Positions 29,451 to 34,354 of a stretch of DNA of 64,000 nucleotides are shown piece by piece (position 1 is the stretch's first letter; the number at the start of each line of letters is the position of its first letter). A program made the translations under genes and the position numbers. Below the pieces are notes generated by a model. That model was given only the letters and a program-made list of their open reading frames with translations, did not search any database and was not told the DNA's origin. Origin of the DNA: Oligoflexales bacterium (lineage in GTDB: Bacteria > Bdellovibrionota_B > Oligoflexia > Oligoflexales > JALZUQ01); the NCBI GenBank assembly GCA_023301565.1, contig JALZUO010000034.1, forward strand, positions 67,621-131,620. Reading direction: 5' to 3'.

Positions 29451-29588
29451 TCAATACTTTTCTGTAGTTGTATCTTCGCGCAAAACCTTTTCTGCGGCAG
29501 ACAACTGTTTGAATGCATAGAGCTGGCTGCAACAAAAAGCCGCCAACGTAATGCCTGAAATACTATAGGCTAGTACAATATACGTCAT
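29451..29588 (-). CDS. ccmD: CcmD-like small membrane protein (45 aa, absent from ORF track)
   Basis: MTYIVLAYSISGITLAAFCCSQLYAFKQLSAAEKVLREDTTTEKY; ATGA overlap with ccmC stop; sits between ccmC and ccmE. Confidence 0.7.
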   Translation of the reverse strand: MTYIVLAYSISGITLAAFCCSQLYAFKQLSAAEKVLREDTTTEKY

Positions 29589-30241
29589 CTATGCATTCCT
29601 TTCATCTGTAGGCCGTAAACCACAGATTTTTTTGTACGAACCATATACCGCAAAAGAACCATGCTAGTACTTACCACAAGAATGATAAGCAGGTTTGCGA
29701 TCAGAACCCTAAGCATCACAGGGTCCATGGTGCTTCCGCCTTCGCGCAGAAGGCTTTGAGGTTGATGAAGGGTTCTCCACCAGTTCACGCTTTGGTAAAT
29801 AATAGGAAGGTTAAGAGTGATCAATATCCCGAGCACGCTGCAGGCACGTAGCCTTCGGTTTAAGCTTGGCAAAGATCCGTGCAAGACTAGAAACCCGGCT
29901 AACATCAAGACTAGAAGCAAAGAAGTTGTGAGCCTAGCATCCCAGGTCCACCAAACGTTCCAAGTGGGCTTGCCCCAGATCGAGCCAGTTGCAAGAAGCA
30001 GTATGCCAAACACCAGGGCGACTTCTACGCAAGAAACCATCCAGTTGTCTTGTTTTATACTTGTAGAGCTAAAAAGAAGGTTTCGCACACTCGAAAAAAA
30101 CAAAAGAATAGTTACATAAAAAGTTGCTAGAGCTATAGGGACATGAACATAAATGATTCTATATACTTCACCTTGGATTGCATCTGAAGGCGCAAAGACC
30201 AAAGCTAAAATCCAACCTGCTGCTAAAAGAGCGGCATTCAC
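29585..30241 (-). CDS. ccmC: Heme exporter/cytochrome c biogenesis protein CcmC
   Basis: YIHVP-like YVHVP and WGKPTWNVWWTWDARLTTSLLL Trp-rich (WWD) motif. Confidence 0.92.
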   Translation of the reverse strand: MNAALLAAGWILALVFAPSDAIQGEVYRIIYVHVPIALATFYVTILLFFSSVRNLLFSSTSIKQDNWMVSCVEVALVFGILLLATGSIWGKPTWNVWWTWDARLTTSLLLVLMLAGFLVLHGSLPSLNRRLRACSVLGILITLNLPIIYQSVNWWRTLHQPQSLLREGGSTMDPVMLRVLIANLLIILVVSTSMVLLRYMVRTKKSVVYGLQMKGMHR

Positions 30242-30306
30242 AAGTGTTATAGTTAATAGTTTAGAGATAAATCACCACACAAAATTTGAATCAAACTTAA
30301 ACGAGG

Positions 30307-30993
30307 CTAGCTGTTTGAGCTTTCGCTAGGTCTATTCAATTCACCAAACAAAAAGCAGCCCGCAGCAATGTACAATAAAGTTACACCAGAGAGCAATGAC
30401 AACCAGGAATTGAGCTCAGAAAAAGCCGATAGCCGATAAAGTTCCGTAATGTTTGAATATGCCAGCAGTGCTGGGCTGGCGATAGGGTAGTACAAAAGGC
30501 TAAAAACAATGCGGCTTAGCCTCGACTCGAACGCTATAGATCTTAACAGTAGGCCAAGGCTGCCTAAACCACAGCATAGCAACAAGGTAGCCAGTAAAAA
30601 CTGCCAGCGAAAGATGGTTGGCGTAGCGTTCGAGAAAAAACCGATCGCAAGGTTTGCCAAAAAGCAGATGCAAAGAACCTGGGCAAACGTAAACAACCAT
30701 TTTGCTAAGAACCAGCCGTAGACGCTTTGCGTGTGTGTACGCAAGTAGGTAAACGCCTGATCTTCGCTTTCAGCAGAAAAGGCGTTTGCTAGGCAAAGCT
30801 CTAAACTAAGAAAGATGACAAGGACTTGGATAAGCTCTAACACGTACGCCTTGTTCTCACCCTCTAATGAACCGAGGTTGAAGTTTAGCAAGGTAGCAAG
30901 GATGATGCTGAAAAGTGCTGGTGCAAGAATATCCAAGGGGCGTTTAAAAAAAAGCTTAAAGTGCGAGCGTAAATGTTGCTGAAAAGAAATCAT
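30307..30993 (-). CDS. ccmB: Heme exporter protein CcmB-like
   Basis: Six hydrophobic segments; operon position between ccmA and ccmC; LLYYPIASPALL; start taken at internal Met. Confidence 0.75.
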   Translation of the reverse strand: MISFQQHLRSHFKLFFKRPLDILAPALFSIILATLLNFNLGSLEGENKAYVLELIQVLVIFLSLELCLANAFSAESEDQAFTYLRTHTQSVYGWFLAKWLFTFAQVLCICFLANLAIGFFSNATPTIFRWQFLLATLLLCCGLGSLGLLLRSIAFESRLSRIVFSLLYYPIASPALLAYSNITELYRLSAFSELNSWLSLLSGVTLLYIAAGCFLFGELNRPSESSNS

Positions 30994-31559
30994 GGTCTTT
31001 CCAAATCCACAGAGCTCGTAGCAAGGCCGTCTAACCATTGAGTTTGGTGAGAAACAACAAGAAAACTCTGACCATTTTCTATGCCAGACTTTATTTTTTT
31101 GACCAATGTTTGTATTCCACTCTGGTCCAGGCCCATAAGGGGTTCATCGAGCAAAACACAGCTAGCGTCAGAAGAGAGAGTTCGCAAAAGACCAAGACGC
31201 CTACGCATGCCAGTACTGAAGTTCCTTACCGGGAAGTTCTTCCAAACCATGTGACGCGGACCAAGCCAGTCGGATAAGTCCGAACTAGAGCAATCACTTG
31301 AAAGGTTGTTTATATAATCTAGGTCCAGAAAAAGTCCGTTGGTCTCGCTTTGTAGGTATGCTTTTTTAAGCCCACTTTTCCATTCAACCTGACCATGAAA
31401 GCCCGGAAGCAGACCTGACAAAACCTTTAGGCACGTAGACTTGCCTGCTCCGTTTGGCCCGCGAAGGTGAATAAGCTCGCCGGGTTTGCATTGAAAGCTA
31501 ATTGGTCGCCAAAGTGGCGAGTCAAAAAAACTAAATGTGAGGTTTTTTACCTCAAGCAT
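30990..31559 (-). CDS. ccmA: Heme ABC exporter ATP-binding protein CcmA
   Basis: RGPNGAGKST, FSTGMRRRLGLLR and CVLLDEPLMGLD motifs. Confidence 0.88.
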   Translation of the reverse strand: MLEVKNLTFSFFDSPLWRPISFQCKPGELIHLRGPNGAGKSTCLKVLSGLLPGFHGQVEWKSGLKKAYLQSETNGLFLDLDYINNLSSDCSSSDLSDWLGPRHMVWKNFPVRNFSTGMRRRLGLLRTLSSDASCVLLDEPLMGLDQSGIQTLVKKIKSGIENGQSFLVVSHQTQWLDGLATSSVDLERP

Positions 31560-32477: not shown

Positions 32478-32670
32478 GTGAACCACCATTTTTTTCTTAT
32501 CTCCGTTAGCCTCTATATAAGTCATTATCTCAGAAGGTGCTGCCCAAGGCGGGTAGCCGACACTGCAAATTACGGCGCTAAACACTAAATAAGGCAGACG
32601 TTTCCAGAAAAGCTAATGAAAACAACCTGTTTTGTCGAAAAGAAATAGAATAAGGAAGAGGTTCCAGCTT

Positions 32671-33030
32671 ATGAATAAATTCAGAATTTTGACGCTACTA
32701 CTTACTGGGGCATTGTGTTTTGGCTTTGCCGGCGAGATTCAGGCGCAGACAAAGAAAAAACGTAAAACCGTGAAGAAGCTTAAGAAAAAAACGGAGCGTA
32801 GGCGAAACCTTGTCGTTGAAAAAACCTATAAGATAAAAAAAGGCAATCAAAAAACAAATTTTGACTTTGATGCCGCAGATATTTCCGGTGCCAGAAAGAC
32901 TCCTTTTGGTGAATTGGTTGATACGGTCGAATCAGATAGGACTTACAACTTTATCAAGCTTCGAACAAATTGGAGACCAGAGATGGAACGCTCTGCAGCG
33001 ACTCTTGAAACTGGCTCTGGTCGAAAATAA
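32671..33030 (+). CDS. Hypothetical secreted Lys/Arg-rich protein
   Basis: Signal peptide MNKFRILTLLLTGALCFGFAGEIQAQ then KKKRKTVKKLKKKTERRR; ATG at 32671. Confidence 0.6.
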   Translation: MNKFRILTLLLTGALCFGFAGEIQAQTKKKRKTVKKLKKKTERRRNLVVEKTYKIKKGNQKTNFDFDAADISGARKTPFGELVDTVESDRTYNFIKLRTNWRPEMERSAATLETGSGRK

Positions 33031-33085: not shown

Positions 33086-34354
33086 ATGATGCCAAAAGAC
33101 AAAAGAAATCTGGGTCACCGAACGCACTCTTTCCGGCGAAAATGGCATTTTGATTGGCCTATTTTGCAGGTATTGTTCGGTGGTTTGTCTCCCATAGATC
33201 TTCCTGAACTACCTTTTTCAAAGATGACCTCTACCCATGACTTTATCAAAGGGTATGGCTTTGACATGGGGATTCAATCAGACCAAAAATCAGCACATGC
33301 TTTGTTGGCGGAGTCTTTGTACTTTATTGAGCACCATCTTGCCCCGCGCGAGTGGAAAAGAGGTATGCGACCCCCTGAGGCTGTTCTATTTTGCGAGGAT
33401 CCGCGTGAGTTGGTCTGGCGTGCTTCGCAAAGAGGCTCGTTTGATGCGCTAGAGGGCGCTTGGTCGTGCGCCCTTCTTCGGATTATGCACACTGCAGCAC
33501 ATTTAGATGCAATTTGGCGGCGCATCGATCTTCATGCTGCTACAGAACAGCTTAAAAAGAGATTTGAAAAACACATTAAATATAACCGTGATGGAACGGT
33601 TGTTTTGAAGAAAGATCATCAGTCTGTCTTGCTAAGAAGGCTGGACTGGAAGCCACCAAAAAAAAGAAGTTCTGTTTTTCTTAAGCTTTTACATAAACCT
33701 GCTAACGTAGCTGAAACAGTTTATGATCTGATAGGGTTGCGGATTGTTACAGACAATTTTAGTGACGCTATTCGAGCGGTTCAGTATTTAACAGAGCTTC
33801 ACGTCCTTTCTTTTGCAAACATTATCCCTGCCAGGTCCCGCAACTCTTTGGTTGATTTGGATCAGTTTAGGATATTTCTGGATCACAGCGGCTTAGAGCT
33901 TAATGGGAATAGGGTTTCCCTGGAAAAGTTAGAAGAAAAAATGTCTCAGGTATCCTCTTTGAAGCCGGAGGTGGTTTTAAGTGAAAACAAGCACTCTTCA
34001 CAAGAGTACCGGTCTATTCAGCTTACCTGTAGGCAGCTATTATTGGACTCAAATTCTTGTATGGAAGACGATTTGTTTCAGGGAGCTGGAAAGCATTTAA
34101 GGCCAGGATCACAGGCAGCTAATTTTCTTGAAGAGCTTATAAAGGTTAAAAATTTGCCTAAAACACTTCAAAATGAAGAAAAAAATACTAACTTTTTCCC
34201 TTTCGAGGTACAGGTTTTAGATCGGGAAAGTTACCAGAACTCTCGGCATGGAGAGGCTTCTCACTCAAGCTATAAGCTGGCTCAGGTCAGAACTGCAAGA
34301 AAGCGTATCCTGGGCGAGGTCTTAACGCTTTGGAAGCGTCAAAAGGTGTCTTGA
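33086..34354 (+). CDS. Divergent RelA/SpoT nucleotidyltransferase-fold protein (possible TIGR04552-type family)
   Basis: YDLIGLRIVTDNFSDAIRAVQYL, YRSIQLTCR and FEVQVLDRESYQNSRHGEASHSSYK align in order with RelA/SpoT synthetase motifs. Confidence 0.6.
   Translation: MMPKDKRNLGHRTHSFRRKWHFDWPILQVLFGGLSPIDLPELPFSKMTSTHDFIKGYGFDMGIQSDQKSAHALLAESLYFIEHHLAPREWKRGMRPPEAVLFCEDPRELVWRASQRGSFDALEGAWSCALLRIMHTAAHLDAIWRRIDLHAATEQLKKRFEKHIKYNRDGTVVLKKDHQSVLLRRLDWKPPKKRSSVFLKLLHKPANVAETVYDLIGLRIVTDNFSDAIRAVQYLTELHVLSFANIIPARSRNSLVDLDQFRIFLDHSGLELNGNRVSLEKLEEKMSQVSSLKPEVVLSENKHSSQEYRSIQLTCRQLLLDSNSCMEDDLFQGAGKHLRPGSQAANFLEELIKVKNLPKTLQNEEKNTNFFPFEVQVLDRESYQNSRHGEASHSSYKLAQVRTARKRILGEVLTLWKRQKVS

Follow-up and report, generated by a model that had tools for sequence, protein, structure and literature searches.

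The open reading frame at 33086-34354 of the window (the whole 64,000-nucleotide stretch of Oligoflexales DNA analysed here) raises the question of whether a protein that resembles RelA/SpoT alarmone synthetases, the makers of ppGpp by which bacteria signal starvation, in a few short motifs is itself such an enzyme and, if so, what it acts upon. The frame runs from an ATG start at 33086 to a stop at 34354 and encodes 422 amino acids. An earlier note had singled out the motifs VYDLIGLRIV, YRSIQ and FEVQVLD...RHGEASHSSYK, all of which we found in that order in the 422-residue frame, and had proposed a divergent RelA/SpoT synthetase fold without the HD hydrolase.

33086..34354, + strand: TIGR04562/TIGR04552 family gene (open reading frame list; NCBIfam match)

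Family membership and kinship with RelA/SpoT synthetases

The earlier note had overlooked that a family already exists for the whole protein, namely TIGR04562/TIGR04552. In an hmmscan search the protein matched positions 1-355 of the 356 of NCBIfam model TIGR04562 (E 1.1e-85; 288 bits, against a curated cut-off of 140 bits) as well as the sister model TIGR04552 (E 1.8e-82); it is a member over its full length, with no difference from the family. The label used by NCBI, 'TIGR04552 family protein', gives a number only and leaves the function unnamed. As TIGR04562/TIGR04552 is already catalogued, this is not a newly discovered protein family.

Profile searches connected the protein to the RelA/SpoT synthetases. 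The Pfam profile RelA_SpoT (PF04607), the comparison proposed in the earlier note, scored 28.7 bits, just above its gathering cut-off of 27 bits, with only profile positions 3-49 of 113 covered. When 61 homologues were scanned separately, 41 of them matched PF04607 at E 0.01 or better (best E 9.5e-9), and whole-genome searches returned near-complete PF04607 alignments for some relatives (for example, positions 3-112 in G048). A phmmer comparison with solved Rel chains weakly aligned residues 191-234 and 371-403, that is, both catalytic blocks (E 0.16). This joint alignment of the two blocks suggests, if indirectly, that D214 and E374 share a pocket, as the earlier note had required. A comparison of profiles, with the long Rel from this lineage as the partner, gave a likewise weak match (probability 17%, E 0.0015), which recovered the Glu block alone; insertions that interrupt the alignment would be expected to have this effect.

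Structure searches pointed in the same direction. Using the AlphaFold model built from the 61-sequence alignment (pLDDT 89, pTM 0.83) as a Foldseek query against the PDB, we found that the best 50 matches listed were all RelP, RelQ, Rel/RelA or CapRel (best E 5.5e-4, probability 1.00). Global superpositions on RelP and RelQ were poor (TM by target about 0.4-0.6, rmsd 13-18 A), probably on account of insertions in the model, and these modest TM-scores and large rmsd values indicate that the part held in common with RelP and RelQ is the core only. The RelA/SpoT likeness of the protein is beyond a chance motif, yet remote, and the family, profile and structure searches alike uphold the proposal of a divergent synthetase fold that lacks an HD hydrolase.

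Donor site, acceptor side and N-terminal domain

In RSH enzymes, basic residues bind ATP, an Asp and a Glu hold Mg, and the pyrophosphate goes to a 3' hydroxyl. The corresponding parts of the protein, together with those peculiar to it, are as follows.

33086..33574, + strand: all-helical N-terminal domain, residues 1-163, not HD (model, conservation, Pfam and PDB searches)
33650..33697, + strand: ATP-site stretch K189..K192...S196...K200...K204, residues 189-204 (conservation, PF04607 match)
33722..33742, + strand: catalytic Asp motif YDLIGLR, residues 213-219, with D214, G217 and R219 (PF04607 match, conservation)
33773..33985, + strand: region containing the first insertion, past the catalytic Asp and ahead of the acceptor loop, about 50 extra residues, with near-invariant R250 and invariant N253 (model, conservation, spacing)
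33986..34033, + strand: acceptor loop and strand N301-x-H-S...Y308-R-S-I-Q312-L-T314-C-R316 (conservation)
34055..34186, + strand: second insertion, two helices, of lower model confidence (AlphaFold model, spacing)
34193..34306, + strand: catalytic Glu strand and C-terminal motif FFPFE374-V-Q376-V-L-D379...G389-E-A-S-H393-S-S-Y396-K...Q400...R407 (phmmer, profile-profile comparison, conservation)

The catalytic residues D214 and E374, the ATP-site lysines K192 and K200, and Q376 are kept in all 61 homologues, which span several phyla at about 30% identity. Also invariant in this set are G217, N253, N301, Q312, T314, F371, P372, Y396, Q400 and R407, and position R219 is either R or K. Where Rel has R-x-K-x-x-x-S-x-x-x-K, the protein has K189, K192, S196, K200 and K204. 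The spacing from K192 to the Asp is 22 residues in every family member and that from the Glu to Tyr396 is 22-23 residues across the family; the K...D and E...Y spacings of Rel lie within one residue of these, and the order of the motifs is the same.

The acceptor side is another matter. The catalytic Asp and the acceptor Tyr are separated by 94 residues here (family median 96) compared with 44 in Rel, and the Tyr and the Glu by 66 (family median 57) compared with 16, which indicates that two insertions of ~50 residues flank the acceptor loop. In place of the RSH acceptor motifs G-Y-x-S-x-H and E-x-Q-I-R-T the protein has Y-R-S-I-Q, without the Gly, and E-x-Q-x-[LMV]-D, and the Rel-type K-x-N-x-Y loop is not kept. 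The Arg of QIRT, which the earlier note had found missing, is absent family-wide, its column being mostly L, M or V among the 61 homologues, and the next column, the Thr of QIRT in Rel, is D (D379) in 60 of the 61. The acceptor Y308 is Y in 50 homologues and F in 11, and R250, N253, N301, Q312, T314, R316 and R407 are conserved as a set that is particular to the family and differs from that of Rel. The donor site is kept, whereas the acceptor side is rebuilt, which may alter the acceptor used.

With the small synthetases RelP (SAS2) and RelQ (SAS1) (e.g., PDB 6fgj, 6ex0 and 5dec) the protein has in common the SYNTH fold and the lack of an HD domain, and it retains their catalytic Asp, Glu and ATP-site lysines. 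However, RelP and RelQ have about 200 residues, whereas the protein has 422, including an extra helical N-terminal domain of ~120-160 residues and the two insertions, and it lacks a QIRT-type Arg and has a remodelled acceptor loop. Unlike the long RSH protein Rel, it has no HD, TGS or ACT domain; indeed, none of these was found by Pfam in any of the 61 family members.

The ~160-190 residues that precede the first synthetase motif are consistent with the '~200' for which the earlier note saw no resemblance to an HD hydrolase. The sequence of the N-terminal domain gave no consistent Pfam match and no PDB sequence match. Residues 1-163 folded alone yielded a helical model (pLDDT 85), and a search of the PDB with this fold gave no match (best E 0.88). 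We therefore rejected a degenerate HD domain, which neither sequence nor fold supports. Within the domain S35, D38, Y57, G58, C128 and H135 are invariant and H139 nearly so; a sensory or regulatory role is our guess.

Proposed function and its alternatives

The analyses show the family, the fold, the conservation pattern, the absence of HD, the presence of Rel in the same genomes and the absence of a toxin-antitoxin partner; catalysis, acceptor and regulation we infer as follows. The protein, a member of the RelA/SpoT (SYNTH) superfamily, would act as a stand-alone pyrophosphokinase in which ATP-Mg is, very probably, bound via K192, K200 and D214, the beta-gamma pyrophosphate would be moved to a 3' (ribose) hydroxyl of the acceptor, and E374 would act either as the base or as a second ligand of the metal. 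The likeliest acceptor would be a guanosine (or adenosine) nucleotide, giving (p)ppGpp-like alarmones; the unique helical N-terminal domain would control their synthesis, and the full-length Rel of the same cell could remove the guanosine product. To this reading, in which the protein is an alarmone synthetase-like pyrophosphokinase of the housekeeping type that carries a regulatory domain of its own, we give an even chance. What favours a nucleotide as acceptor is that RelP and RelQ are the nearest folds and that the gene is housekeeping-like and lacks a toxin's neutraliser. Since the main donor-half residues are kept, transfer of pyrophosphate is the simplest explanation, and with nucleotide and larger acceptors taken together we hold it to be quite probable.

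The SYNTH fold is also that of the toxSAS tRNA pyrophosphokinases FaRel2, PhRel2 and CapRel (PMC11559606, PMC9712102), and acceptors are diverse among RSH enzymes (PMC11559606, PMC12691689). The loss of the QIRT Arg and of the K-x-N-x-Y loop, together with the two insertions, suggests that the acceptor may not be GDP or GTP. An active SYNTH-fold pyrophosphokinase that modifies a larger acceptor (e.g., the 3' end of tRNA or RNA, as toxSAS enzymes do), in a regulatory rather than toxic capacity, is possible if doubtful: the insertions that flank the acceptor loop, the family-specific residue set and the presence of CapRel, a tRNA pyrophosphokinase, among the fold matches listed speak for it, but among those same matches the nucleotide-using RelP and RelQ are closer in fold, and the gene, with one copy in most genomes, behaves like a housekeeping gene. 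Moreover, unlike toxSAS genes, the TIGR04562 gene is chromosomal and has neither an antitoxin gene or fusion nor a match in the defence library. Across the lineages examined, no recognisable or recurring antitoxin-like partner lay beside the family genes and no fusion was seen; with no PADLOC match, no recurring small partner and no occurrence in plasmids, we rejected a toxin-antitoxin or defence gene. Rather unlikely, in our estimation, is the bolder version in which the family forms a widespread non-toxic RelA/SpoT branch that uses an acceptor other than free GDP or GTP (e.g., an RNA 3' end) in normal physiology and is controlled by a sensory domain of a kind not seen before.

Two further readings give up pyrophosphate transfer to such acceptors. 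Other transferase chemistry on the nucleotidyltransferase fold, be it NMP transfer or transfer of pyrophosphate to a protein or metabolite, would suit an N-terminal domain without a characterised relative and a remodelled acceptor half, but the donor set K..S..K..D..R at RSH spacing points to pyrophosphate transfer from ATP, and we regard this chemistry as distinctly unlikely. A catalytically dead sensor or scaffold, an option that the earlier note had raised, would fit the missing QIRT Arg, the replacement of Y308 by F in some homologues and the apparent loss of a TIGR04552 gene in one evolved Bdellovibrio line, in which a single-base indel rose above 75% (PMC9888234). Under at least one set of laboratory conditions such a loss thus seems to be tolerated, and the indel may have hitch-hiked. 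Non-catalytic homologues would, however, be expected to lose catalytic residues, and neither the Asp and Glu nor the two ATP-site lysines vary across phyla at the low identity given above. This invariance makes the dead sensor highly improbable and an active pyrophosphokinase likely.

The table entry reporting that indel was the only mention of TIGR04562/TIGR04552 in the openly licensed literature searched, where we found no report of an enzymatic activity for the family and nothing on point about a Bdellovibrio alarmone synthetase. The 2011 census of RSH proteins (PMC3153485) describes twelve SAS groups and names neither Bdellovibrio nor Myxococcus in its text. The placement in the RelA/SpoT superfamily, the distinct N-terminal domain and the remodelled acceptor side appear unreported in the openly licensed papers searched, though silence in that literature carries little weight. 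If active, the protein would provide most Bdellovibrionota, and some Myxococcota, Eremiobacterota, Sericytochromatia and Sumerlaeota, with a second conserved alarmone-type enzyme, all these lineages also having a long Rel. Its remodelled acceptor side makes the family a good place to seek new acceptors of the SYNTH fold.

Distribution and genomic neighbourhood

A family match was present in 46 of the 58 genomes of the phylum (44 above the cut-off), nearly always in one copy (the two matches of G030 are contig-edge fragments), and in 0 of 18 genomes sampled from the rest of the domain. When genome contigs were scanned, relatives were found under the labels Bdellovibrionota, Myxococcota, Eremiobacterota, Armatimonadetes, Sericytochromatia, Sumerlaeota, Spirochaetales and UBP6; in a tree these grouped largely by lineage, the submitter names being rough. 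A separate PF04607 protein occurred in 30 of 30 Bdellovibrionota and 25 of 25 distant genomes tested, and in nearly all of these 55 it was a long Rel of about 700-900 residues (in the genome of the window, L001 on G000:C49).

Further PF04607 proteins, neither Rel nor TIGR04562, were seen in G016, G017, G018, G004, G076, G086 and G095; they mostly have about 330-450 residues (one has 921), and the Eremiobacterota-type G076 has several extra. One Eremiobacterota and one Sericytochromatia genome each carry two divergent TIGR04562/04552 paralogues (L062/L105 and L079/L106). A homologue at 31% identity (L139) lies in MW495066.1, 115540-132625, deposited as the complete genome of 'Microcystis phage MaAM05'. 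Its neighbours are glyS, secDF, acpS and a transglycosylase gene, and glyS, secDF and acpS make MW495066.1 look like a bacterial contig rather than a phage. As this was the sole 'phage' match, we rejected a phage gene.

Within the window the gene is preceded at 55 nt by a small co-directional one.

32671..33030, + strand: small Lys-rich protein with a signal-peptide-like start (ATG at 32671, inside the listed open reading frame 32632-33030)

This small gene is syntenic in 7 loci, in this lineage only, and the family at large does not keep it as a partner. With it, as a small exported protein, on one side, the TIGR04562 gene has lolC/E-like, lolD-like and bamA-like genes on the other. Elsewhere the neighbours vary by lineage (GH57/glgC, DJ-1, AlgH-LipB, GPAT), so synteny says little about function, and we rejected a functional link via neighbouring genes. 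A scan for promoters and terminators yielded sites no more numerous than in shuffled sequence.

At 29585-31559 on the - strand the window has ccmC-like, ccmB-like permease and ccmA-like ABC ATPase genes, as for cytochrome c maturation. A TlpA/thioredoxin-like gene from the ccm neighbourhood adjoins, in relatives, the TIGR04562 gene and is oppositely oriented. In Bdellovibrionales-type loci (L083, L084, L086, L089, L094, L097 and L110) the homologue lies near genes for a GYF_2-domain protein and a PlsB-like glycerol-3-phosphate acyltransferase, in most of them directly downstream. In the UBP6-type lineage (L091, L092, L102, L107, L111 and L113) it comes after glgC-like and GH57 glycosidase genes with hardly any spacing, an arrangement that is possibly an operon with glycogen metabolism.
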